From contig NC_022584.1 of NCBI RefSeq assembly GCF_000479335.1, forward strand, positions 1-64,000: a stretch of 64,000 nt of DNA, given 5' to 3'. A program made the position numbers and the translations under genes. Each line of letters begins with the position of its first letter. Positions within the stretch are counted from its first letter, which is position 1. Below the pieces are notes generated by a model. It worked only from the letters and a program-made list of their open reading frames with translations, had not been told where the DNA came from and ran no database searches. Positions 16,922 through 29,330 of this stretch are shown in pieces. Source of the DNA: Streptococcus ilei. Lineage in GTDB: Bacteria; Bacillota; Bacilli; Lactobacillales; Streptococcaceae.

Positions 16922-18330
16922 GCTAAGCCATCTAAACCTCCTGCAGAGTGGCCTCCGGTCAGCTTGCTTCGAGCCAGAGCGCGTGAATTTTCTAATAGGG
17001 CAGATCCCTTCTGTAGAGAAGCAAAGCCAAAGCGGTCACGGATGTGGTCAATGGTCTCTTGGAGGGCCTCTTCTTTTTGGGTTTGCTCAGGGTCATCAAA
17101 TAAGGAGATCAGCTGGAATCTCTCCTCTACGAGCTTCCCATAAAAGACTCCAATCTGCCGGATAGCTCCTCCCTGGTAGTGGGAACGAAAGAGCTGGATG
17201 ACTTCATTAGCTAATTGAGCGGTAGAGTTGGTCGGTTCAATCTTTCGCTGGCAGTGGATGGAAGGGAGCTGTTCCTGTTTGGAGTAGCTGGCGTGGATGG
17301 AGACCAATTGGGTTTTTTTCTTTTCCCGACGCAAGCGGATAGCAACCTGCTCGGCCATCTCCCGAAAGACCAATTCAATATCGCTTTGGCGGTGGTAGTC
17401 ACGGGGAAGGATTTGCGAATTTCCTAGACCGTGAGACTTTGGTCGATAGGGGCGATGGACATTGCTTTCGTCAATCCCATGGGTATGAAACCAGAGCTGG
17501 ACGCCCATGATTCCAAATTCTTTTTTGAGCTGGTCTGGATTGGCCTGGGCCAGCTCATAGATGGAGTGAATGCCGAGCCTGTTCAGGCGTTTTTCTGTTC
17601 GATGGCCAATCCCCCAGAAATCAGTTAGTTTTTTTATCTGCCAGACTCGACTGGGGACGTCTTCGTAAGACCAGTTAGCTCGCATGGTTTTCTGGTGCTT
17701 GGCTTCGTTGTCTAGAGCCAGTTTGGCCAGGAGCGGATTGGCATTGCTCATCCCGACAGTAGCATAGATCCCAGTTTGCTGCCAAATGCGCTTTTGGATC
17801 CGAGCAGAAAGGAGATCTAGCTTGGAGCGTCGGTCTAGCTGAGGATCAGGAATAAAGTAGTTGAGAGAGCTGGTCAAATCGATAAATCCCTCATCGATAG
17901 AATAGGGGTAGATATCATCTGGAGCAGCAAATTCTTGAAAGACTTGCTGGATTTCCATGTTGACATGGATATAGGCATTCATGCGAGGGGGCACGATAAA
18001 GGTGCGCTTGGCCCAACTTTCGATATAGTGGACAAAGGCTGGATCTGTAGGTAGACCTTGCTTACGGGCCAGGTAGTAATTGAATTTCCTAGTCTTGAGA
18101 TCAAAGGGCAGATCGTAGCTACGCCCGACATTTTTCTTTCCAAAGACCTGCTTAAAAACGGGGGAACTGGCTAAGATGAGGCCAGCAGAATTGTCGCTCC
18201 GACTCATGACACAAAGAGAAGTCGTCAAGGGATTGAGGCCGAGGCGGACGCATTCACAACTGGCATAGAAACTTTTCATATCCACAAAAGCAATATCAGA
18301 CCTTGGCTCACGTGAATAATCAAAAAGCAT
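16918..18330 (-). CDS. umuC: Y-family DNA polymerase (UmuC/UvrX type)
   Basis: Translesion polymerase of 470 residues. The palm motifs are visible: FVDMKSFYASCE near residue 16 supplies a catalytic Asp, and YSIDEGFIDLT supplies the acidic pair. The helix-hairpin-helix region is at FWGIGHRTEKRLNRLGI. The C-terminal little-finger domain follows. It belongs to the Gram-positive UvrX/YqjW group, not DinB. It lies three bases after the S24 repressor stop and overlaps the YolD-like gene, which implies SOS-type induction when the repressor cleaves itself. Confidence 0.92.
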   Translation of the reverse strand: MLFDYSREPRSDIAFVDMKSFYASCECVRLGLNPLTTSLCVMSRSDNSAGLILASSPVFKQVFGKKNVGRSYDLPFDLKTRKFNYYLARKQGLPTDPAFVHYIESWAKRTFIVPPRMNAYIHVNMEIQQVFQEFAAPDDIYPYSIDEGFIDLTSSLNYFIPDPQLDRRSKLDLLSARIQKRIWQQTGIYATVGMSNANPLLAKLALDNEAKHQKTMRANWSYEDVPSRVWQIKKLTDFWGIGHRTEKRLNRLGIHSIYELAQANPDQLKKEFGIMGVQLWFHTHGIDESNVHRPYRPKSHGLGNSQILPRDYHRQSDIELVFREMAEQVAIRLRREKKKTQLVSIHASYSKQEQLPSIHCQRKIEPTNSTAQLANEVIQLFRSHYQGGAIRQIGVFYGKLVEERFQLISLFDDPEQTQKEEALQETIDHIRDRFGFASLQKGSALLENSRALARSKLTGGHSAGGLDGLA

Positions 18331-18332
18331 GT

Positions 18333-19010
18333 CTAGACCTCCAGAGGGAGGAAGTGGCCGACCACGATACCGACAATTTTTGGTTCATCTTCGTAGGGAG
18401 CAAAGAGGTCATCATAGGCTGGGTTGATAGACTCTAGGCGGAGGCTCTCCTCTTCCCGATAGACTTTTTTGATATAGGTCTTCCCGTTCCACATAAGGGC
18501 GTAGACCGCTCCATCATAGTCAAATCCTGTCTGTTTCATCAAGGCAACGGAACCGTTTGGATAGCTTGGTTCCATAGAATCTCCAGAGACCCAAGAGGCA
18601 AAGTCGTGTTGGATCTCTTGGTCAAAATAAACGGTCTCGTAGTCGGTCTCATTGTCATAAAAGGTATGACCATGTCCAGCTGCCAAGTCGATAGAGAGGA
18701 CACGGTAAGGGACCAAAGAGACCACCTTTTCTTGCTCTGCTAAGAGTTGGCTAGCCAAGAGATCGACCTTTTTCTGATGGGGTGGGGTTAATAAAGGGTA
18801 GGTGAAAAGCGCTGAGCTCTTGTCGACAAAGTAGTCCTCTTTAACGGAGAGGCGCTTGGCCAACCTCCTGAGATTTTTATCGTGTGGCTCTGCTAAGCCA
18901 TTCTCCCAACTAGAGTAGGTCTTGCGACTAATCTCTAAGGATTCGTAGACCTGGGCTTGGGTTAGGCCCAGCTCCAGTCGCCGGTCTTTTAATTTTTTTG
19001 CATCAAACAT
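18333..19010 (-). CDS. hdiR: HdiR-like XRE/S24 self-cleaving repressor
   Basis: I start it at MFDAKKLKDRR (ATG at 19010), seven bases after AGGAG, giving 226 residues; longer upstream frames lack support. An XRE helix-turn-helix fills about residues 5-65 (LGLTQAQVYESLEISRKTYSSW). The LexA-like S24 domain shows the cleavage pair AG in IDLAAGHGHT, the nucleophile Ser in SGDSMEP, and the general base Lys in GKTYIKKV. This matches HdiR of lactococci, which is cleaved after RecA activation. It heads the operon with the Y-family polymerase and presumably represses it through the palindrome just upstream. Confidence 0.88.
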   Translation of the reverse strand: MFDAKKLKDRRLELGLTQAQVYESLEISRKTYSSWENGLAEPHDKNLRRLAKRLSVKEDYFVDKSSALFTYPLLTPPHQKKVDLLASQLLAEQEKVVSLVPYRVLSIDLAAGHGHTFYDNETDYETVYFDQEIQHDFASWVSGDSMEPSYPNGSVALMKQTGFDYDGAVYALMWNGKTYIKKVYREEESLRLESINPAYDDLFAPYEDEPKIVGIVVGHFLPLEV

Positions 19011-19021
19011 CTGCATTCTCC

Positions 19022-19046
19022 TATGTAACGTTTTAAAAGTTACATA
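19022..19046 (-). promoter_or_regulatory. Palindromic operator upstream of hdiR
   Basis: TATGTAAC and GTTACATA lie in mirror image around nine bases, directly upstream of the hdiR ribosome site and within its promoter region. This is the likely binding site of the S24 repressor. Confidence 0.7.
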
Positions 19047-19155
19047 TAGTATAGCAAAAATAAATTCGGACTTCAAGAGAAAAGTGAGAGGATTTTTCTT
19101 TAGCAGTGAAAGGGATGTGGTTGAGTAACTCTCAGATTGGAGAGGGTGGGTGTTT

Positions 19156-19185
19156 TTGTATCTTTTATCCAAATTTTGATATAAT
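19156..19185 (+). promoter_or_regulatory. rsmD promoter, leaderless
   Basis: TTGTAT at about 19156 and TATAAT at 19180 are 18 bases apart, and TG precedes the -10. The ATG follows only seven bases after the -10, so the mRNA should start at or next to it. No ribosome site is present. Confidence 0.6.
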
Positions 19186-19192
19186 AATCTCT

Positions 19193-19732
19193 ATGAAGAT
19201 TGTATCAGGTACCTATGGAGGGCGTCCTCTTAAGACGCTCGAAGGAAAGACAACGAGGCCCACTTCAGATAAGGTGAGAGGGGCTATGTTTAATATGATC
19301 GGTCCTTATTTTGATGGGGGGCGGGTCTTGGATCTATATGCTGGCTCAGGTGGCTTGTCCATCGAAGCGATATCTCGGGGGATGGAGCAGGCTGTCTTGG
19401 TCGAGAAAGACCGCAGAGCCCAAGGGATCATTGCCAGCAATATCCAAATGACCAAGGAAAGCCACAAATTTCAATTGCTGAAGATGGAGGCTCACCAAGC
19501 ACTCAGTCAATTGCAGGGGACCTTTGACCTTGTTTTCTTAGATCCTCCCTATGCCAAGGAGCAGATCGTAGCCGATATTGAAACCTTGGCTGAACGAGAC
19601 TTGCTGGGAGAAGAGGTCATGGTCGTCTGTGAGACGGACAAGGCAGTAGACTTGCCTGAGGAGATTGCTTGTCTAGGAATCTGGAAAGAAAAAATCTACG
19701 GAATTAGTAAGGTAACGGTTTATGTCAGATAA
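19193..19732 (+). CDS. rsmD: 16S rRNA (guanine966-N2)-methyltransferase RsmD
   Basis: I start it at MKIVSGTYGGRPLK (19193), the family's usual N-terminus, instead of the longer frame from 19106. The 179-residue protein carries the SAM-binding loop LDLYAGSGGLSIEAISRG and the catalytic DPPY tetrad in FLDPPYAKE. It methylates G966 of 16S rRNA during 30S assembly. It overlaps coaD by 11 bases, the common rsmD-coaD pairing in Firmicutes. Confidence 0.93.
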   Translation: MKIVSGTYGGRPLKTLEGKTTRPTSDKVRGAMFNMIGPYFDGGRVLDLYAGSGGLSIEAISRGMEQAVLVEKDRRAQGIIASNIQMTKESHKFQLLKMEAHQALSQLQGTFDLVFLDPPYAKEQIVADIETLAERDLLGEEVMVVCETDKAVDLPEEIACLGIWKEKIYGISKVTVYVR

Positions 19733-20195
19733 AATAGGGTTATTTACAGGTTCATTTGACCCAATGACCTTGGGACACTTGGATTTGATAGAGCGAGCTA
19801 GTCGCTTGTTTGATTGCTTGTATGTAGGCATCTTCTTTAATCATGAGAAGAAGGGCTATTTTACCATTGAGCAAAGAGAGGCCATGGTGACAGAGGCAGT
19901 AGCTCATTTGTCCAATGTAAGAGTCATCATCTCAGAGGCAGAGTTGGCAGTAGAAGTGGCTAGACGGTATGGAGTGACGAGCTTGGTTCGAGGCCTGCGA
20001 AATAGCCAAGACTTCCTCTATGAAAGCAACATGGACTACTTCAATCACCAGCTGGCTCCAGAGCTTGAGACCATCTATCTCTGTACCCAACCCCAGTACC
20101 AGGCCTTGAGCTCGACGAGAATTCGCGAGTTGCTGACCTTCCAGCAAGATGTCAGTGCCTATGTCCCAGAGAGTGTTATAAAGGAGATGAAATAA
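19722..20195 (+). CDS. coaD: Phosphopantetheine adenylyltransferase
   Basis: Fourth step of coenzyme A synthesis: ATP plus 4'-phosphopantetheine gives dephospho-CoA. The nucleotidyltransferase motif TGSFDPMTLGH has the T/HxGH signature at 16-19 (TLGH). The second motif is SSTRIRELL near residue 127. The length of 157 residues is standard. It overlaps rsmD and is followed five bases later by the PDZ protease gene, forming an rsmD-coaD-sepM unit. Confidence 0.95.
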   Translation: MSDKIGLFTGSFDPMTLGHLDLIERASRLFDCLYVGIFFNHEKKGYFTIEQREAMVTEAVAHLSNVRVIISEAELAVEVARRYGVTSLVRGLRNSQDFLYESNMDYFNHQLAPELETIYLCTQPQYQALSSTRIRELLTFQQDVSAYVPESVIKEMK

Positions 20196-20200
20196 AAGGA

Positions 20201-21307
20201 ATGAATGAATTTGAGAAACAAAGGGATCAGTTACCAGAAAGCCCATTTGAACCTGTACGCAAAAAAGATAGTGTGTGGAGAACCTATCGCTGGCCGATTA
20301 TTGGGACTTTGCTTCTGATTCTGGCCTTGCTAGCTTTCTTTGTTCCCCTGCCCTATTATCTGGAAATGCCCGGGAGTTCAGAAGATATTCGCCAAGTGAT
20401 GCGCGTCAACCAGAAAAATGATGAAGCATCTGGTTCGTATGATTTTGTCACTGTTGCCGTCAAGCAAGCGACCTTCTCGGATATAGTCTATGCCTGGGTG
20501 ACTCCTTTTACAGATATCCACTCTGAACAAGAAATGACTGGTGGCAGTTCCAGTGAGGAATTTTTCCGGATTAATCAATTTTATATGGAAACCTCTCAAA
20601 ATACTGCCAAATACCAAGGATTAAAAACTGCTGGTAAAGAGACAGAGATGGAATTCTTAGGTGTTTATGTCATGCAAGTAGCAGAAGACTCTACTTTCAA
20701 GGGCGTTCTAAATATTGCAGACACGGTTACGGCTGTGAATGACAAAACCTTCAAGAGCTCAAAAGAACTCATCGAGTATGTTGGTTCCCAAAAAATTGGG
20801 GACAAGGTCACAGTGACCTACACAGAAGATGGCCAGACCAAGACAGCTGAAGGAAAGATTATTAAGTTGGTCAATGGTAAGAATGGAATTGGGATTAGCT
20901 TGATTGACCGGACAGAGGTGAAGAGTGACGTGCCAATTGAGTTTGCGACAGCTGGCATCGGTGGCCCAAGTGCCGGGATGATGTTTAGTTTGTCCATCTA
21001 TACCCAGGTAGCGGATCCAGACCTTCGTCAGGGACGCCATATCGCAGGGACAGGGACCATTAACCATGATGGGACTGTCGGAGATATAGGTGGAGTGGAT
21101 AAGAAAGTCGTGGCGGCAGATCGGGCTGGGGCTGAAATCTTCTTTGCCCCTGATAATCCGGTAACAGAGGAAGTTAAAAAGAACAATCCTAATGCTAAGA
21201 GCAACTACGACGAAGCGGTAGAAACAGCTAAAAAAATTAAGACCAAGATGAAAATTGTCCCTGTCAAAACCTTGCAGGATGCTATTGATTATTTGAAAAA
21301 GAATTAA
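20201..21307 (+). CDS. sepM: SepM-like PDZ/S16 membrane protease
   Basis: Membrane-anchored serine protease of 368 residues. One transmembrane helix lies near residues 28-50 (WPIIGTLLLILALLAFFVPL). A PDZ domain covers about 140-225, and a Lon-type S16 domain follows. The catalytic Ser is in GIGGPSAGMMFSLS and the Lys in GGVDKKVVAADRAG. In S. mutans the equivalent protein trims the competence signal peptide outside the cell, so a role in signal processing here is plausible but not shown. It is the last gene of its unit, followed by a 175-bp repeat. Confidence 0.87.
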   Translation: MNEFEKQRDQLPESPFEPVRKKDSVWRTYRWPIIGTLLLILALLAFFVPLPYYLEMPGSSEDIRQVMRVNQKNDEASGSYDFVTVAVKQATFSDIVYAWVTPFTDIHSEQEMTGGSSSEEFFRINQFYMETSQNTAKYQGLKTAGKETEMEFLGVYVMQVAEDSTFKGVLNIADTVTAVNDKTFKSSKELIEYVGSQKIGDKVTVTYTEDGQTKTAEGKIIKLVNGKNGIGISLIDRTEVKSDVPIEFATAGIGGPSAGMMFSLSIYTQVADPDLRQGRHIAGTGTINHDGTVGDIGGVDKKVVAADRAGAEIFFAPDNPVTEEVKKNNPNAKSNYDEAVETAKKIKTKMKIVPVKTLQDAIDYLKKN

Positions 21308-21324
21308 AGTAGCTTGCTCGAAAA

Positions 21325-21499
21325 GAGAGTGGGACAGAAATCGGTCATTCGTTAGAATTCGATTTCGTCGTCCCACCTCCGCACAGTTGAGTAGGGCTGT
21401 AAAAGCTGATGAAATCAGCGTAGTAGAGCCCACTCAACCACTGCGTCTTACTCGACAATCCAAAGACAATATCGAGGCTAGGATTTTTGTCCCAGCCTC
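21325..21499 (+). repeat. 175-bp structured repeat, copy A
   Basis: Begins GAGAGTGGGACAG and ends TTTTGTCCCAGCCTC. The ends are imperfect inverted repeats. Inside are GTTGAGT...ACTCAAC arms around a small GCTGATGAAATCAGC hairpin. It fills most of the gap between sepM and ccdA. Near its end the sequence forms a long hairpin (ATATCGAGGCT against AGCCTCGATAT) that may end sepM transcription. Confidence 0.9.
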
Positions 21500-21554
21500 G
21501 ATATTGGTAGATAGGGATATCCATCTCCCAATCAAATTCAAGTTTTTGCATATC

Positions 21555-21582
21555 AATCTCTCTATTTTTAGAGAGATTTTTT
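21555..21582 (+). terminator. Hairpin upstream of ccdA
   Basis: AATCTCTCT and AGAGAGATT enclose a T-rich loop, followed by a T-run. It separates ccdA from the upstream unit; TATACT at 21586 is a possible -10 for ccdA. Confidence 0.65.
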
Positions 21583-21620
21583 CTTTATACTAGTGTCAGA
21601 AAGTAAGGGAGGTAGTTGAA

Positions 21621-22331
21621 ATGATTGAAACTAGTTTGTTTTCCATTTCAGTGTTCTTAGCGGGGGTTCTATCTTTTTTCTCTCCGTGTATTTTACCGTT
21701 GATGCCAGTCTATGTAGGGATCTTATTGGATTCTGAGCATGAGAAAACGGTGCGTATTTTTGGAAGAGATATTTCTTGGTATGGTTTGGTCAAGACCCTC
21801 TGTTTTATTGCTGGTCTATCAACCGTATTTCTCATCCTAGGTTATGGGGCGGGTGCCCTGGGTCAGGTACTTTATGCTCCCTGGTTCCGTTACCTACTAG
21901 GAGGGATTGTCATCTTATTGGGAATCCATCAGATGGGCCTCATCAATCTTCATCAACTGCAAAAGCAAAAGAGTATCCAACTGAAGAAGGACGAAAAACG
22001 CAACGAATTCTTCAATGCCTTTCTAATTGGAGTGACCTTTAGTTTTGGGTGGACTCCTTGTGTCGGACCTGTATTGAGCTCCGTTTTAGCGATTGCGGCT
22101 TCTGGAGGAAATGGTGCTCTACAAGGAGCGCTCTTAATGCTGGTTTACACCTTGGGCTTAGCTCTTCCCTTCCTACTCTTGGCCCTGGCTTCAGGCTGGG
22201 TCTTGCAACGCTTTGCCAAACTCAAGCCTCATATGGGGACCTTGAAAAAAATCGGTGGTGCTCTCATCGTCTTGATGGGCATCTTGCTCATGCTGGGTAA
22301 TCTCAACAGCCTAGCATCCCTGTTTCACTAA
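21621..22331 (+). CDS. ccdA: CcdA-type thiol electron transporter
   Basis: A 236-residue membrane protein with six hydrophobic helices that moves reducing electrons across the membrane to extracytoplasmic thioredoxins. Its two active cysteines lie in the paired motifs SFFSPCILPLMP (C23) and FGWTPCVGPVLSS. AGGGAGG precedes the ATG. The next genes are a Met-rich lipoprotein, a thioredoxin-fold lipoprotein and membrane-anchored msrAB, so the electrons most likely serve surface methionine sulfoxide repair, as described for the pneumococcal CcdA/Etrx/MsrAB system. Confidence 0.92.
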   Translation: MIETSLFSISVFLAGVLSFFSPCILPLMPVYVGILLDSEHEKTVRIFGRDISWYGLVKTLCFIAGLSTVFLILGYGAGALGQVLYAPWFRYLLGGIVILLGIHQMGLINLHQLQKQKSIQLKKDEKRNEFFNAFLIGVTFSFGWTPCVGPVLSSVLAIAASGGNGALQGALLMLVYTLGLALPFLLLALASGWVLQRFAKLKPHMGTLKKIGGALIVLMGILLMLGNLNSLASLFH

Positions 22332-22357
22332 TCTTGAATGATTAAAGGAGAAAAATC

Positions 22358-22663
22358 ATGAAAAAAATTCTTGCACTTACTATTGCTACCCTTAGCATCG
22401 TCACTTTAGCAGCTTGTTCTGGAAAAAAATCTGATTCAGATATGAAAAAAACGGACGATAGTAGTATGATGAAGAAGGACGATATGAAGGATTCGTCCAT
22501 GTCCGATGATAAAATGAAAAAAGACGATATGAAAGATTCATCTATGATGTCTGACAGCAGTTCTGAAATGAAAGACGACATGAAAGAAGATAAGATGAAA
22601 TCGAGCGATTCAGAGATGAAGGACGACATGAGTGACTCATCTGACATGAAATCAGACCAATAA
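22358..22663 (+). CDS. Methionine-rich lipoprotein
   Basis: A lipoprotein signal (MKKILALTIATLSIVTLAA, lipid-attached C20) leads an 82-residue mature chain of almost only Ser, Asp, Lys, Met and Glu. I count 15 Met in it, mostly in repeats such as KKDDMKDSSM and SEMKDDM, with no aromatic residue and no further Cys. It would be disordered, soluble and tethered to the cell surface. It sits between ccdA and the Etrx-msrAB genes with its own AAAGGAG site. I infer a sacrificial methionine sink recycled by MsrAB. A metal-binding role through Met/Asp is the alternative. I know no characterised homolog. Confidence 0.85.
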   Translation: MKKILALTIATLSIVTLAACSGKKSDSDMKKTDDSSMMKKDDMKDSSMSDDKMKKDDMKDSSMMSDSSSEMKDDMKEDKMKSSDSEMKDDMSDSSDMKSDQ

Positions 22664-22728
22664 AGGACAATAGGAAGAGGAGGTCGTCTGCTTGGGCGAC
22701 TTTCTCCCAATTTAGAGAGGAGGAAGAC

Positions 22729-23289
22729 ATGAAAAAAATAGCCTTAATAGCGACAGGACTTTTCTGTGTTGGATTGTTAGGGGCCTGCTCCGCCCAGGGG
22801 ATGGAGTCATCCAATAAAAGCGAGACTAAGCAGACAGCCAAAACGGGAGATTCAGAGCAAGCTGGCAAGAAGGTTCTGGATTTTAGCCTGCAAGGAGTAG
22901 ACGGCAAGACCTACCGCTTATCAGATTACAAAGGGAAGAAAGTCTATCTCAAGTTTTGGGCTTCCTGGTGCTCAATCTGTCTTTCAACATTAGGTGACAC
23001 AAATGATTTAGCAAAGGCAGAGGAGGGGAAAGATTATGTAGTTCTAACTGTTGTCGCTCCGACATTTAATGGGGAAAAATCAGCCGATGACTTTAAAAAT
23101 TGGTACCAGGCTTTGGACTACAAAGATTTCCCAGTCTTGATGGATAGTAAGGGCGACTTGCTCAAAGAGTACGGGATTCGCTCTTATCCATCTGCTCTCT
23201 TTATTGCGAGCGATGGAACTCTCGCCAAGACCCATATCGGCTATATGAGTAAGGAAGACATCGTCCAGACTCTAAAAGAAATGAAGTAA
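22729..23289 (+). CDS. etrx: Extracytoplasmic thioredoxin-like lipoprotein (Etrx)
   Basis: A TlpA/ResA-type thioredoxin of 186 residues with a lipobox ending at C20 (LLGAC) and the redox pair C81-C84 in WASWCSICL. The cis-Pro loop is at GIRSYPSALFI. It should sit on the outer face of the membrane, receive electrons from CcdA and pass them to the neighbouring MsrAB. The ATG has GAGGAAGAC upstream; msrAB starts 12 bases after its stop. Pneumococcal Etrx1/Etrx2 are the close models. Confidence 0.88.
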   Translation: MKKIALIATGLFCVGLLGACSAQGMESSNKSETKQTAKTGDSEQAGKKVLDFSLQGVDGKTYRLSDYKGKKVYLKFWASWCSICLSTLGDTNDLAKAEEGKDYVVLTVVAPTFNGEKSADDFKNWYQALDYKDFPVLMDSKGDLLKEYGIRSYPSALFIASDGTLAKTHIGYMSKEDIVQTLKEMK

Positions 23290-23301
23290 GGAGGACATAA
23301 A

Positions 23302-24423
23302 ATGGAAACAAAATGGAAACTCATTTCCGTTCTTTTAGTGGGCCTGCTTTGTTTTGGACTCTTTTTCCTTATCAAAGGATCCATGGCCTTGGATACATCA
23401 GATGCGACGACTGAGCAGATCAAAAAAGCGTCCATGAGTCAGACACCAGTAGCAAACAAAAAGAAGGAAGAAAAAGTCAATCCAGAAGACCAACGAGAAA
23501 TCTATCTAGCTGGTGGCTGCTTCTGGGGTGTGGAAGAGTATTTTTCCCGTGTTCCAGGCGTCATTGATGCCGAATCAGGTTATGCCAATGGAAAAGGGGA
23601 TACTACCAAGTATGAACTGGTCAACCAAACAGGGCATGCCGAAACGGTACACATCACCTATAATGTCAAGAAGGTTTCCTTGAAAGAACTGCTTCTACAC
23701 TATTTCCGGATTATTGATCCAACATCAAAAAACCGTCAGGGAAATGATCAGGGCAGTCAATATCGGACAGGAGTTTATTACACCGATCAAGCAGATTTGC
23801 CAACCATAAACCAAGTATTTGAAGAAGTGGCAAAGAAATATGATAAGCCTTTGGCTGTAGAAAAAGAAGAACTTGCTAATTATATCAAGGCGGAAGACTA
23901 CCATCAGGACTATCTACAGAAACACCCGAATGGCTATTGTCACATTGATGTGAATCAAGCTTCTTATCCGGTTATTGACGCTAGTCGTTATCCAAAACCA
24001 AATGATGAAGAGATCAAGAAGAAGTTATCGCCCGAAGAATATGCAGTGACGCAAGAGAATGATACAGAGCGTGCTTTTTCTAACCGCTATTGGGATAAGT
24101 TTGAAGCGGGCATCTATGTGGATGTCGTAACAGGAGAGCCCCTCTTTTCCTCAAAAGATAAATTTGATTCCGGTTGTGGTTGGCCAAGTTTTAGCCGGCC
24201 GATCAGTCCCGATGTGGCAACCTACAAGGAAGATAAGAGTTTCAATATGACTCGGACAGAGGTTCGGAGTCGAGTAGGAAATTCCCATCTAGGCCACGTC
24301 TTTACGGATGGACCTAAGGAAAAAGGTGGCCTTCGCTACTGTATCAATAGTTTGTCAATTAAATTCATTCCTAAAGCAGAGATGGCAGAAAAGGGCTACG
24401 GCTATTTGTTGGACTATGTCTGA
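23302..24423 (+). CDS. msrAB: Membrane-anchored methionine sulfoxide reductase MsrAB
   Basis: A 373-residue fusion that reduces both stereoisomers of methionine sulfoxide. A single N-terminal transmembrane helix (about 7-25) anchors it outside. The MsrA domain has its catalytic C73 in [11 protein letters not shown]. The MsrB domain has SGCGWPSF and the catalytic C347 in RYCINS. A charged linker (residues 50-66) separates anchor and MsrA. It is the last gene of the ccdA-lipoprotein-etrx-msrAB cluster, and its likely substrates are oxidised surface proteins, including the neighbouring Met-rich lipoprotein. Confidence 0.95.
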
Positions 24424-24442
24424 GACTTTTTGCGACCTACTT

Positions 24443-24451
24443 TGATATAAT
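24443..24451 (+). promoter_or_regulatory. Extended -10 promoter of the two-component operon
   Basis: TGATATAAT lies about 20 bases ahead of the response regulator start and after the msrAB stop. The regulator can thus be expressed separately from msrAB. Confidence 0.5.
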
Positions 24452-24472
24452 GAGTACAACAAGGATAAGTAG

Positions 24473-25216
24473 GTGAAACACATGTATTCAATCATGATTG
24501 TAGAAGACGAAGAGCTGGTTCGGCAGGGACTTACTTCTCTAGTGAATTATGAACAGTTTGGGATGAAGGTCATTGACCAAGCGGAGAATGGGCGAATAGC
24601 TTGGGAAAAATTTCAAGTACAACCGGCTGATCTTCTCTTAACTGATATTAATATGCCACAGTTGAATGGCTTAGATTTGGCCCAACTGGTCCGAGAGAAA
24701 GCTCCGTCCTGCCATATCATCTTTCTAACAGGCTATGATGATTTTGAGTTTGCTCAGAAAGCCATTCGACTCGGAGCAGATGACTATCTCCTCAAGCCCT
24801 TTTCAAAAGCGGATATTGAAGAGATGCTGGAGAAAGTCAAGAACAAGCTAGACGAGGAAGGAAAGAAAGCCCAGGTTGAAACCTTGGTGGATCAGGGGCA
24901 TTCGACAGAGTTGGAAGAGGCTATTCATTCCCGCTTAGCGGATTCCCAATTAACCCTTAAGGACTTGGCTCTTCAACTGGGTTTTAGTCCCTCTTATCTG
25001 AGTGTCCTAATCAAGAAAAAATTGGGCCTCCCTTTTCAAGAATACTTGATCCAAGAACGGATGAAGAAGGCCAAACTTTTACTCTTGACGACCGATCTCA
25101 AGATTTATGAGATTGCAGATCAGGTTGGCTTTGAAGATATGAACTATTTTTCTCAACGCTTTAAACAAGTAGTCGGTGTAACCCCAAGACAATACAAAAA
25201 AGGAGAGTATGAATGA
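24473..25216 (+). CDS. Response regulator, AraC/YesN type
   Basis: The 247 residues hold a receiver domain (about 4-120; acidic pocket VEDEE, phospho-Asp in LLLTDINMPQ, conserved Lys in LLKPFSK) and a C-terminal AraC-type pair of helix-turn-helix motifs (LALQLGFSPSYLSVLIKKKLG, then DQVGFEDMNYFSQRFKQVVG). I use the GTG at 24473, but the ATG at 24482 is equally possible. It overlaps the kinase start by four bases. Its position next to msrAB matches pneumococcal TCS09. Confidence 0.88.
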   Translation: MKHMYSIMIVEDEELVRQGLTSLVNYEQFGMKVIDQAENGRIAWEKFQVQPADLLLTDINMPQLNGLDLAQLVREKAPSCHIIFLTGYDDFEFAQKAIRLGADDYLLKPFSKADIEEMLEKVKNKLDEEGKKAQVETLVDQGHSTELEEAIHSRLADSQLTLKDLALQLGFSPSYLSVLIKKKLGLPFQEYLIQERMKKAKLLLLTTDLKIYEIADQVGFEDMNYFSQRFKQVVGVTPRQYKKGEYE

Positions 25217-26925
25217 AACGATACCCTTTGCTGATTCAGCTGATTGTCTATGTATTTGTCTTCATTCTCTTGCTCTTGGGTTTAGTCGGTAGTCTATACT
25301 ATCAAACTAGCTCAGCAACCATTGGCCAACTGACAGAGCGAACAACCCGCAATAGTATCGACCAGAGTAGTCAGTTTATCACCTCCTATCTGAAAAAATT
25401 GAAGCAGACCACCTCGATCCTCAGTAAAGAAGAGACCGTTCGTCAGTTTGCTCAAGACAAGGAGGAGAGCCCAGAAGCCGTTCAAAGTCTGATGCGAACC
25501 ATTATTGAGACAGACCCAGATCTGGTTTCGGCTGTCTTAGTAACTAAGGATGGACGCCTTGTTGCTACGGATTCTCAAATTAGCATGCAGACCTCATCGG
25601 ATATGATGAACGAAAGCTGGTATCAGGAGGCTATCAAGAAGAGGGCCATTCCTGTCTTGACGCCAGCCCGGAAGGAATCTTTGTCTTCAGAGAAGGACAA
25701 GTGGGTGATTTCTATCACCCAGGAAGTGGTGGATGCTTCTGGTCAAAATCTAGGAGTTTTGCGCCTAGATATTGGCTATCAGAGCCTAGAAGCTTATCTG
25801 GATCATCTCCAACTGGGCAAAAAAGGCTTTAGTTTCATCATCAATCAGAAGCATGAATTTGTCTACCATCCTAAAAAGACAGTCTATTCTTCTAGTCAGG
25901 AAATGCAGGCCATGCAACCCTATATTGCTGTCAAGGATGGCTATGCCCAAAAGGGACAGAACTTTGTCTATCAAATTGCTATACCAGAGAGTGATTGGAC
26001 CTTAATTGGAGTGGCCTCTCTGGAAGGTCTCCAGATGCTTCAGTCGCAAATGCTCTATTCCTTTATAGGTTTAGGAGCTCTCGTCCTCATCATGTGCTGG
26101 GTGGGAATCTGGTTCATTCTGCGCTTGTGGATCAAACCCCTACAAGATTTACAGGCCGTCATTCTGAAAATAGGAGCTGGTGATTCCCACTTGCGGGCGA
26201 CTACCAAAGGATCGCCTGAATTGGTAGATCTTGCTCAAGCCTTCAACCGTATGTTGGATCAAATTGAAAACCTTATGCAATTGGTTAAAGAAGAGGAACA
26301 AAATGCACGACGCTATGAACTGCGAGCTCTTGCAGCCCAAATTAATCCTCATTTCCTCTATAACACCTTGGATACCATTGTCTGGATGGCTGAGTTTAAT
26401 GATGGTCAGCGGGTGGTTGACCTGACCAAGTCCCTAGCCAAATATTTTCGACTTGCTCTCAATCAAGGACAAGAACAAATTAGGCTTCAGGATGAAATAG
26501 ACCATGTGCGCCAGTATCTCTTCATTCAGAAACAACGCTATGGGGATAAGTTGAATTATGAAATTTTAGAAGAGGGGACGTTGGGAGATTATCAGCTTCC
26601 TAAACTGGTCCTACAACCCTTAGTGGAAAATGCCATCTATCACGGCATCAAGGAGATGGATCGGCCGGGCGTGATACGAGTCACTTCGGAAATTAGAGAA
26701 GAACAAGTGGTCCTGACGATTTACGATAATGGACGAGGCTTTGCTTTGTCTGAGTCGACAGACCAAACTCTTCTTCGACTAGGAGGCGTTGGTTTGAAAA
26801 ATGTGGATCAACGCTTGCGGTTACAGTTTGGGGCTAGCTATCATATGGAGATTGATTCTAAGGCTAATAGCTATACGAAAATCACTCTTTATTTACCCCT
26901 CACATCACGAGATGAACATTCCTAG
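25213..26925 (+). CDS. Sensor histidine kinase, YesM/LytS type
   Basis: A 570-residue kinase. Transmembrane helices lie near 10-33 and 280-305, with an extracellular dCache-like sensing domain of about 240 residues between them. A HAMP segment follows (WIKPLQDLQAVILKIGAGD). The phospho-acceptor is in QINPHFLYNTLD, and the ATPase N-box is LVLQPLVENAIYHGI with NGRGF afterwards. It is translationally coupled to the response regulator and is the last gene before a strong terminator. The ligand is unknown. Confidence 0.9.
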   Translation: MKRYPLLIQLIVYVFVFILLLLGLVGSLYYQTSSATIGQLTERTTRNSIDQSSQFITSYLKKLKQTTSILSKEETVRQFAQDKEESPEAVQSLMRTIIETDPDLVSAVLVTKDGRLVATDSQISMQTSSDMMNESWYQEAIKKRAIPVLTPARKESLSSEKDKWVISITQEVVDASGQNLGVLRLDIGYQSLEAYLDHLQLGKKGFSFIINQKHEFVYHPKKTVYSSSQEMQAMQPYIAVKDGYAQKGQNFVYQIAIPESDWTLIGVASLEGLQMLQSQMLYSFIGLGALVLIMCWVGIWFILRLWIKPLQDLQAVILKIGAGDSHLRATTKGSPELVDLAQAFNRMLDQIENLMQLVKEEEQNARRYELRALAAQINPHFLYNTLDTIVWMAEFNDGQRVVDLTKSLAKYFRLALNQGQEQIRLQDEIDHVRQYLFIQKQRYGDKLNYEILEEGTLGDYQLPKLVLQPLVENAIYHGIKEMDRPGVIRVTSEIREEQVVLTIYDNGRGFALSESTDQTLLRLGGVGLKNVDQRLRLQFGASYHMEIDSKANSYTKITLYLPLTSRDEHS

Positions 26926-26957
26926 AGACAAAGGTCACCCTCTTTGTCTCTTTTTAT
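26924..26957 (+). terminator. Terminator of the two-component operon
   Basis: AGAGACAAAG pairs with CTTTGTCTCT, followed by a T-rich tail. It overlaps the kinase stop codon. Confidence 0.85.
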
Positions 26958-27133
26958 TTTCCGTTTGAGTAAGCTTTGAAAAAGCCTATTTTTTCTGATG
27001 AGATAGGAAGAAGAGGTAAATTAAATCGTCAGACTTTTTACAGAATCTCTCTTTTCCGTTGAAATTCTATCTAAAGCTAGGGATTTATGATAAAATAAAG
27101 TGTTACAACTAAAGGTATGAATAAAGGAAGGCT

Positions 27134-27712
27134 ATGCGCAAAGAAATATCCCCTGAATTATTTAATTATAATAAATATCCTGGACCGGAATTTCGTCTGG
27201 TCGGCAATCAAGTGCTAGCAGAACAATTGACATTTGAGCTGGTTGAGAACCAAAATGATGCCTTTGATGCGACGGTCTTTGGTCAGCGTTTTTCAGAGGT
27301 TTTAACCAAGTTTGATTATATTGTCGGTGATTGGAGCAATGAACAGTTGCGTCTGCGTGGCTTCTATAAGGACGATCGTCCGGTTACAGATGCAGAGAAA
27401 ATCAGTCGTCTAGAAGATTATTTACTAGAATACTGTAGCTATGGCTGTGCTTATTTTGTCCTAGAAAATGCAGAACCCCGTCGAGCATCCTTTGACAAGA
27501 AATCTTCTCCAAAACAACAGGAAGAGGGCAACCGTTCTGCTAAGCGTGGCGGTCGTCAAAATCGCCGAAATCGTTCCAAAAATCAGCCACGGGAACGTGA
27601 ACAAGAGCAAAAACAAAAGGCTTCTCAACCAAAGAAAAAGAACCGTCAGCGGTCTAGAAAAAAAGATGCACAGGGTGAGCAAGAACGCCACTTTGTCATC
27701 CGTCAAAAGTAA
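27134..27712 (+). CDS. yutD: YutD-like protein
   Basis: Residues about 1-115 match the YutD family (LTKFDYIVGDWSNEQLRLRGF and LEDYLLEYCSYGCAYFVLEN). The last 75 residues are a strongly basic, Arg/Lys/Gln-rich tail (KRGGRQNRRNRSKNQ) that suggests RNA contact. Function unknown. AAGGAAGG precedes the ATG. rlmN follows 18 bases later, and the yutD-rlmN-vanZ order is shared by streptococci. The roughly 180 bases upstream show only a weak promoter (TAAAAT near 27091). Confidence 0.85.
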   Translation: MRKEISPELFNYNKYPGPEFRLVGNQVLAEQLTFELVENQNDAFDATVFGQRFSEVLTKFDYIVGDWSNEQLRLRGFYKDDRPVTDAEKISRLEDYLLEYCSYGCAYFVLENAEPRRASFDKKSSPKQQEEGNRSAKRGGRQNRRNRSKNQPREREQEQKQKASQPKKKNRQRSRKKDAQGEQERHFVIRQK

Positions 27713-27730
27713 AGAGAGAAAAGAGATAAG

Positions 27731-28819
27731 ATGAAACCTTCAATTTATGGCCTGACTCGACAAGAACTGATTGAGTGGGCAGAAGAACATGGTGAAAAGA
27801 AATTCCGAGCAACCCAAATATGGGAATGGCTCTATCGGAAACGCGTCCAGTCATTTGAAGAAATGACCAACCTATCTAAGAGCTTGATCGAAACCTTGAA
27901 TGATCAGTTCGTGATCAATCCTTTGAAACAACGGATCGTGCAAGAATCAGCAGATGGGACTGTCAAATACCTTTTTGAATTGCCAGATGGCATGTTGATC
28001 GAGACAGTTTTGATGCGCCAACATTATGGCTTGTCAGTCTGTGTCACCACTCAGGTAGGGTGCAACATCGGCTGTACCTTCTGTGCATCTGGTTTAATCA
28101 AGAAGCAACGCGACTTGAACAGTGGGGAAATCGTTGCCCAAATCATGCTAGTTCAAAAGTACTTTGACGAGCGTGGTCAAGATGAACGCGTCAGCCACAT
28201 CGTTGTGATGGGCATTGGTGAGCCGTTTGATAACTACAAGAATGTCTTGAGCTTTGTCCGTACGGTCAATGATGACAAGGGACTGGCCATCGGTGCCCGC
28301 CACATTACCGTTTCAACTTCTGGCTTGGCTCATAAGATTCGTGATTTTGCTAATGAAGGGGTTCAGGTCAACTTGGCGGTATCACTTCATGCTCCAAATA
28401 ATGACTTGCGTTCCAGCATCATGAAAATCAACCGCGCTTTCCCAATCGAGAAATTATTTGCGGCTATTGAGTACTATATTGAAACGACCAACCGCCGGGT
28501 AACCTTCGAGTACATCATGCTTAATGAAGTCAATGATGGTGTCGAACAAGCCTTAGAATTGGCAGAACTCCTTAAAAAGATCAAGAAGTTATCTTATGTA
28601 AACTTGATTCCTTACAACCCAGTTAGTGAGCATGATCAGTATAGTCGGAGTCCAAGAGAGCGCGTGATGGCCTTTTATGACACCTTGAAGAAAAACGGAG
28701 TCAACTGCGTGGTTCGTCAAGAGCATGGTACGGATATTGATGCTGCTTGTGGCCAATTGCGTTCCAATACGATGAAGAGAGACCGGGAGAAAGCCATTGT
28801 TGAACAAGTTCAACCGTAA
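27731..28819 (+). CDS. rlmN: Dual-specificity RNA methyltransferase RlmN
   Basis: Radical-SAM enzyme that methylates C2 of A2503 in 23S rRNA and A37 of some tRNAs. The iron-sulfur motif C-x3-C-x2-C is at 111, 115 and 118 (GCNIGCTFC). [12 protein letters not shown] and the C-terminal Cys in ACGQL, needed for the methyl-enzyme intermediate, are present. The length of 362 residues is standard. It overlaps the VanZ gene by 23 bases. Confidence 0.96.
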
Positions 28820-29330
28820 CAACGGGCTGATAGAACAAGGTCAATTAACAAATAAAGGAAGACGACTGCTACTAGGTGGCAGTTTCTTCTATTTTGTCTT
28901 GCTCTGTCTCATGTGTTTTCTCCCCCAACGGCCTGAACCAGGAATGGAAACACCTGGTATCCAACATTTTGGGCGAGTAGTCGTATTGCTGGTTCCCTTT
29001 AATTCCCTCATCAACCTAGCTCAAGTGACCAGCCTGGTCCAGCTGATCAAGGTGTTTGTACAAAATATAGCCAACATCTTTCTCTTATTCCCTTTGGTCT
29101 TTCAGCTGCTTTGGCTCTGGCCTTGGCTAGGCACTCGGAAACGCGTCCTTTGCTTTAGTCTAGGGATGAGTTTATGGATCGAGCTCAGTCAGATTGTCCT
29201 AGACCTCTTGTTTGATTTCAATCGGGTATTTGAGATAGATGATCTGTGGACCAATACCCTGGGAGGCTACCTAGCCTATCTGTGTTTTAAATGGCTACAA
29301 GCTTCTATGAGTAAGGACAAGCCATCTTAG
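28797..29330 (+). CDS. VanZ family membrane protein
   Basis: A 177-residue VanZ-like protein with about four hydrophobic helices ([19 protein letters not shown] first) and the family's acidic end ([17 protein letters not shown]). The start is a TTG at 28797 with GGGAG upstream, inside the rlmN gene. VanZ proteins are linked to low-level teicoplanin resistance in enterococci, but chromosomal members like this have no known function. It is probably the last gene of the yutD operon. Confidence 0.8.

Follow-up and report, generated by a model that had tools for sequence, protein, structure and literature searches.

A methionine-rich lipoprotein gene within the streptococcal ccdA-etrx-msrAB repair cluster and its possible role as an MsrAB-serviced methionine sink

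What does a small lipoprotein loaded with methionine do in a gene cluster for methionine sulfoxide repair? We addressed this question in the window, that is, the whole 64,000-nucleotide stretch of Streptococcus ilei DNA that was analysed. The lipoprotein gene lies at 22358-22663 on the forward strand, running from ATG to TAA, and its translation gives a precursor of 101 amino acids. A signal peptide (residues 1-19) is followed by the lipid-anchor Cys20 within the lipobox LAAC (22358-22417, forward strand, from translation and alignment). This is the arrangement of a bacterial lipoprotein (MKKILALTIATLSIVTLAAC), from which export and lipidation are predicted. In the alignment of relatives, A19, C20 and S21 are invariant across 11 rows.

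The mature chain, counting the lipid Cys, has 82 residues, including 15 Met, 22 Asp, 21 Ser, 17 Lys and 3 Glu. It contains no Phe, Trp, Tyr or His, and the lipid Cys is its single Cys. The translation therefore bears out the composition given in a preliminary description of this DNA, namely 15 Met in 82 residues rich in Asp, Lys, Ser and Glu, with no aromatic residue and no other Cys; the one small correction is that the lipid Cys is itself among the 82. At the local Met frequency of 2.4%, the chance of finding at least 15 Met in 82 residues is about 1e-9; this background was taken from the 39 open frames of at least 200 aa on both strands of the window, chosen mechanically, and the richest 82-aa stretch among them holds 7 Met. 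The lipoprotein repeats, read in antisense, account for an open frame on the opposite strand (22342-22710). The Met-rich tail occupies 22418-22660 on the forward strand. Within it, residues 30-40 (22445-22477, forward strand) form the motif KKTDDSSMMKK, which, with small changes, is common to distant relatives and to the Etrx linkers of some other species in the alignment. An AlphaFold2 model built from 11 sequences has a mean pLDDT of 55.9, with low confidence throughout and nothing predicted beyond the signal helix. Together with the composition, this model indicates that the tail is probably disordered. MsrAB prefers unfolded substrates, and a chain with no predicted fold would suit this preference as well as reactions with small oxidants.

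Searches of known families gave no match for the lipoprotein above the cut-off in Pfam and none at E ≤ 0.001 in PHROG, while NCBIfam returned 14 weak matches at E ≤ 1, all below cut-off and TIGR02953 not among them. Membership of TIGR02953 (MXKDX pentapeptide repeat) was considered separately and rejected: with the cut-off at 41 bits, the window protein reaches 7.6, and 14 control genomes also yielded nothing over the cut-off. The relatives at L049, L018 and L166 reach 37.1, 21.4 and 18.7 bits, all below 41. Across the 46 free lipoproteins collected below, the signal peptide ends in LSIVTLAA (13 of 46), LSIFVLAA (11) or LSIFALAA (10). These ends resemble the gordonii-cAM373 peptide SVFILAA, a word that occurs in PMC5462765, and after cleavage they could be pheromone-like by-products.

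The lipoprotein gene stands in a same-strand row that runs ccdA, lipoprotein gene, etrx, msrAB, response regulator, Cache-domain histidine kinase. On the forward strand, ccdA (21621-22331; Pfam DsbD_TM, 1.2e-19) encodes a membrane protein that passes electrons outward, and etrx (22729-23289; Pfam Redoxin/AhpC-TSA) a thioredoxin-fold lipoprotein that serves as electron carrier. The nearest solved chain to this Etrx is 4hqs_A (4.7e-63), which we take to be pneumococcal Etrx1; the window's own Etrx linker is short, with 1 Met. The product of msrAB (23302-24423; Pfam PMSR 3.7e-56 and SelR 6e-48; nearest chain 3e0m_A, 2.6e-132) has both A and B domains behind an N-terminal hydrophobic stretch. Downstream on the same strand lie a response regulator with an AraC-type DNA-binding domain (24473-25216; Pfam Response_reg and HTH_18), YesN-like by position and domains, and a YesM-like histidine kinase whose Cache domain is probably extracellular (25213-26925; Pfam dCache_1, HAMP, His_kinase and HATPase_c). 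The succession of ccdA, etrx and msrAB along a single strand makes the locus a CcdA-Etrx-MsrAB repair cluster, and open reading frames and Pfam domains confirm that the lipoprotein gene lies between ccdA and etrx-msrAB, as had been described. It begins 26 bp after ccdA and ends 65 bp before etrx, with msrAB 0.6 kb downstream. This order and close spacing suggest that the gene is co-transcribed with the operon. In pneumococcus, overexpression of YesN is reported to induce ccdA1-etrx1-msrAB2 strongly (PMC11034029), and the inserted lipoprotein gene is therefore probably co-regulated with the repair enzymes.

Between the lipoprotein gene and etrx, the RNA is predicted to form a hairpin (22673-22708, forward strand), with a lowest-energy fold of -19.8 kcal/mol. 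Folds read by eye place a similar hairpin at the same position in 37 loci of L002-L039, L018 folding differently. The other 8 free-gene loci lack it; 7 of these have a spacer of 4-32 bases, and L051 has a long, different one. Pairs were counted in 20 different intergenic sequences, selected by eye among L002-L039 with a few further variants omitted; 88.8% of cells are paired, the best of 7 registers. Thirteen cells are changed on both sides, a count reached by none of 500 shuffles, as is also the case for the covariation score; two pairs are changed on both sides, which 302 of 500 shuffles reach, and the number of pair types is reached by all 500. The hairpin was considered as a terminator or attenuator, a reading we dropped: the terminator scan gave no entry at this position, so no attenuation is claimed. 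The hairpin could adjust how much sink is made relative to enzyme.

We propose that the lipoprotein is a tethered methionine sink and a preferred MsrAB substrate that is recharged by CcdA-Etrx-MsrAB, a reading we regard as probable, with considerable room for doubt. A lipid-anchored, disordered, Met-loaded chain would be displayed on the outer face of the membrane, where its thioethers would react first with hypochlorous and hypobromous acid, chloramines and possibly peroxynitrite. Etrx, MsrAB and other surface proteins would thereby be spared. Met sulfoxides in the unfolded chain would then be reduced by MsrAB anchored nearby, with electrons passing from CcdA to Etrx, and this reduction would make the sink renewable. 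Related species hold the same Met-rich segment inside Etrx, between the lipid anchor and the thioredoxin domain. The reaction of methionine with HOCl is very fast and that with H2O2 is slow, so HOCl-type neutrophil oxidants are the likelier target; peroxide, which the preliminary description had also put forward, is unlikely to be a direct one. To work as a bulk sink, the protein needs to be abundant.

If the lipoprotein is serviced by the cluster, its distribution should be informative, and we interrogated it at several levels. Searching with the protein yielded 120 candidates, 24 of them relatives at E ≤ 0.001; many look like short-contig fragments. A scan of named genomes for one N-terminal pattern, counted irrespective of neighbourhood, returned 34 loci, every one of them from Streptococcus (including S. 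sanguinis, S. gordonii, S. cristatus, S. parasanguinis, S. australis, S. rubneri, S. sinensis and S. xiaochunlingii). Matches to etrx are present in 155 of 197 Streptococcus genomes, from which 130 places were fetched, one per genome; this set omits 25 etrx genomes with weaker best matches, as well as L166-L171 (streptococcal and other). Within the fetched stretches, msrAB lies downstream of etrx at all 130 places and ccdA upstream at 109. A free Met-rich lipoprotein, with at least 6 Met and more than 8% Met in its mature chain, is found between ccdA and etrx at 46 of the 130 loci. A Met-rich linker, joining the lipid Cys of Etrx to its thioredoxin domain and holding at least 6 Met, occurs at 17 (15 by script, with L152 and L159, both missed by the lipobox pattern, added by eye; L158, with 5 Met, and L164, with 4, were scored as lacking one). 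The two forms occur together at 3 loci, and neither is present at 70. The idea that gene and cluster always travel together thus holds on one side, the lipoprotein being found with the cluster, and fails on the other at these 70 loci, which we also count against the sink.

A family profile searched against the 197 Streptococcus genomes at E ≤ 1e-7 gave 80 matches in 53 genomes, of which 34 overlap etrx, 46 lie 36-420 bp away and none lies elsewhere; some of the 34 overlaps have a short linker and match largely through the shared lipoprotein signal peptide, and matches weaker than this threshold do occur elsewhere, seemingly other lipoproteins aligned mainly at the N-terminal end. The preliminary description had staked its proposal on homologs staying close to msrAB, and they do: all 80 matches are in or beside etrx, which has msrAB downstream wherever it was fetched. 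Pooled, the 46 free relatives contain 18.1% Met and no His, Cys, Phe, Trp or Tyr after the lipid Cys; individually they range over 11-20% Met, 6-19 Met and mature lengths of 44-110 residues. One free-gene relative (L190, genome G299) has a stop codon inside the match and is perhaps a decayed copy. At 21 of the 130 loci (L114, L127, L129, L132 and 17 more), the fetched stretch holds etrx and msrAB but shows no ccdA match upstream of them. Many of these have a long upstream open reading frame, with a HETTH motif in several, which we take to encode perhaps a ZmpB-like metalloprotease.

Outside Streptococcus, the profile at E ≤ 1e-7 matched two of the 395 genomes of the order, one match being real. 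The other, in G457, is an ordinary lipoprotein aligned at its N-terminal end only and was rejected. The real match belongs to the genus g42, whose four genomes were compared: two carry the free protein together with a Met-rich Etrx linker, in one the Etrx linker is long, acidic and Met-rich, and one gave no fused MsrAB match. The g42 repeats diverge yet stay Met-rich, with TTMMDSKTE repeats in one form and a long acidic ESEAMMDD linker in another. At L195, from this genus, the Etrx linker is very long and acidic, and its EMESEAMMDD repeats are unlike the K/D repeats of Streptococcus. The free protein of G440 (L194), the second of the two genomes with both forms, is differently worded and was missed by the profile, which would likewise overlook dissimilar Met-rich proteins in other places. 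An etrx match at E ≤ 1e-20 is present in 35 non-streptococcal genomes of the class. Among the best 17 of these 35, we found a Met-rich lipoprotein or linker at 0 of 17 Etrx-like loci of other families, applying a rule of at least 5 Met in the 60 residues after the lipobox Cys and no aromatic residue in the first 30; three Streptococcus loci served as checks beside the 17. This absence is a further point against the sink. At L173-L175 the Etrx linkers are short, with 3 Met.

The three loci with both forms allow the free protein to be compared directly with the Etrx of the same locus. The free protein of L046, L048 and L134 aligns over 67-83 positions with the N-terminal part of the Etrx from its own locus, and in each case the mature-to-linker score exceeds that of all 500 shuffles. 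The DNA of the two forms is 80, 79 and 68% identical over 194, 156 and 211 positions, respectively. By these alignments, free protein and Etrx linker are clearly homologous within the three loci, and duplication or exchange within the locus would be the simplest story. A tree of 114 distinct Etrx domains, built on few columns, scatters free and fused forms over several clades; for L152 and L159, the linker label in it was assigned by a residue count starting at a fixed position. The tree does not settle between common descent and convergence; for many of the forms, common descent is favoured by the within-locus homology and by the KKTDDSSMMKK motif they share. The Etrx linker of L153 is 111 residues long, with 16 Met and several HDKM repeats, and is the sole listed linker with regular His.

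A bolder version of the sink reading, which we consider conceivable and rather doubtful, sees a Met 'antenna' module that moves between the free lipoprotein and the Etrx linker and acts as both oxidant sink and substrate platform. The oxidised form would draw MsrAB to Etrx, so that damage itself would assemble the surface repair chain, and capacity would be tuned by repeat number. The occurrence of both forms in one locus with this degree of DNA identity, the spread of Met number among free forms and the Met-rich g42 variants are compatible with it.

The strongest rival to the sink reading is metal binding, in which soft metals, Cu(I) for one, would be bound by the tail at the surface and so stored or detoxified; the gene would belong to the operon because methionine is oxidised under copper stress. 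Tails rich in Met are able to bind Cu(I), and copper-binding Met-rich proteins carry Met, often with His or Cys, in short spacings such as MxM, MxxM or HxxM. We looked at the 682 Met-Met distances of the free family, where 5 is the commonest (346), 1 occurs 79 times, 4 occurs 72 times, 3 (MxxM) occurs 15 times and 2 (MxM) does not occur. The adjacent Met pairs and the distance of 4 speak for metal binding, as do the HDKM repeats of the L153 linker, which are of the HxxM type. However, the prevailing spacing of 5 and the lack or scarcity of MxM and MxxM speak against it, none of the 46 free relatives has His or a further Cys after the lipid Cys, and no obvious copper gene is found among the open reading frames at 17000-29000, where six neighbours were annotated. 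A link between CusF, copper and Met repair is reported in E. coli (PMC9302797) and also favours this rival, which on balance we judge unlikely.

Improbable, too, is a role in docking or relay, in which a substrate-like tether, free or fused, would hold MsrAB near Etrx and speed electron transfer and would not be a bulk sink. The fusion to Etrx at 17 of 130 loci and the position of the gene directly before etrx agree with such a tether, and a lipid-anchored disordered linker would give it reach. A few Met would suffice for docking, however, whereas the free form keeps 6-19, and species with a short linker also possess the pathway genes.

We investigated whether the Met content itself could be incidental by asking what selection maintains. 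Across all pairs of 18 equal-length relatives there are 1840 synonymous and 776 non-synonymous codon differences, a non-synonymous fraction of 0.30, where 0.83 is expected without selection from the window sequence; the count omits L007, which is of equal length and another type, and including it gives 0.39 (2197 to 1405). Smaller length groups have fractions of 0.66 (5 rows, 41 differences in all), 0.46 (6 rows) and 0.23 (5 rows), and a 3-row group, whose repeats are out of register, has 0.83. Judged by these codon counts, the lipoprotein is under purifying selection. In the 18 rows, the majority residue is changed in 9 of 306 Met, 4 of 360 Lys, 5 of 378 Ser and 32 of 432 Asp cells. Met is thus kept no better than Lys or Ser, which counts against the sink, and selection may act on repeat and charge as much as on Met. 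This equal conservation and the drift of mature length over 44-110 residues at the 46 loci would fit a low-complexity spacer, a charged disordered lipoprotein that provides surface charge or a brush. We find that reading very unlikely, since 11-20% Met is kept in 46 of 46 free relatives, the protein is confined to the Msr locus, and the g42 repeats are otherwise different yet Met-rich. Shorter forms of 55-70 residues, with fewer repeats, also occur naturally (P0008-P0011, P0013, P0015, P0017, P0018, P0020 and P0021), which suggests that repeats are gained and lost.

A signalling role, in which the neighbouring Cache-domain kinase would sense whether the lipoprotein is oxidised and would then induce the operon, has in its favour that this kinase is the second gene downstream of msrAB and that YesN overexpression induces the pneumococcal operon. 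It is the least credible of all: L045, with neither the lipoprotein nor a Met-rich linker, has an Etrx linker matching 4hqs, the chain taken above to be pneumococcal Etrx1, so that operon control works without the lipoprotein there.

We return to the lipoprotein as a methionine sink serviced by MsrAB. Its confinement to etrx, the lack of His, further Cys and aromatic residues, and the fusion of the same Met-rich sequence to Etrx all fit this reading, which is plausible and partly supported. The Met-rich though differently worded g42 versions, the purifying selection, the lack of a predicted fold, the electron flow reported for S. gordonii, the YesN induction in pneumococcus and the precedent of MrpX and BcrX also speak for it. 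If it is true, the operon has an uncounted member that provides the pathway with a sink as well as a natural substrate.

Among known systems, CcdA1-Etrx1-MsrAB2 of S. pneumoniae and CcdA1-Sgo_1177-MsrAB of S. gordonii have the same neighbours in the same order and are relatives by domains and structures. A three-gene etrx1 operon in pneumococcus encodes a pathway with the same parts (PMC3914529). In S. gordonii, a five-gene operon that includes a two-component system is reported (Sgo_1180, Sgo_1181, CcdA1, Sgo_1177 and MsrAB), with MsrAB reduced by two Etrx-like lipoproteins and these in turn by CcdA proteins (PMC7034828). A review gives the locus as ccdA1/tlpA/msrB (PMC12650345), and in group A Streptococcus it is ccdA-tlpA-msrAB (PMC11238559). 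The window differs in that the accessible text on these operons (PMC3914529, PMC7034828, PMC12650345 and PMC11238559) mentions no Met-rich lipoprotein. The accessible main text of PMC7034828 also has no mention of sgo_1178 or sgo_1179; from the tag numbering and from an S. gordonii strain with the gene (L072), one of these should be CcdA1 and the other may be the lipoprotein.

Exported Met has likewise been seen as an antioxidant reserve recycled by MsrAB in the exoproteins of Bacillus cereus (PMC5526929). There, the Met belongs to ordinary exoproteins and MsrAB is cytoplasmic, whereas the window encodes a Met-rich lipoprotein. In the literature searched, as far as its text was accessible, we found no account of a streptococcal Met-rich component, of a Gram-positive lipid-anchored form coupled to MsrAB, or of an Etrx fusion, in agreement with the earlier statement that no such streptococcal component was known to have been described. 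The closest precedents are BcrX and MrpX, worded as MXKDX-type peptides in PMC8315932 and taken here to be members of the TIGR02953 family. MrpX of Azospira suillum and BcrX of Brucella melitensis, found with YedYZ/MsrPQ, are proposed there to be a sacrificial HOCl sink renewed by the reductase, and the sink principle itself is already known from them (PMC8315932). The likeness is that the gene for a small, exported, Met-rich repeat protein accompanies that for an extracytoplasmic Met sulfoxide reductase (PMC8315932), and the window has this arrangement too, with export predicted from the signal peptide. In contrast, MrpX and BcrX are Gram-negative, MrpX being periplasmic, and their partner MsrPQ is fed from the quinone pool, whereas the window lipoprotein has a predicted lipid anchor, belongs to a Gram-positive bacterium, would be served by the thiol enzyme MsrAB via CcdA-Etrx, and also occurs fused to Etrx. 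If our reading is true, it extends the principle of MrpX and BcrX to Gram-positive bacteria with a different, thiol-based reductase.
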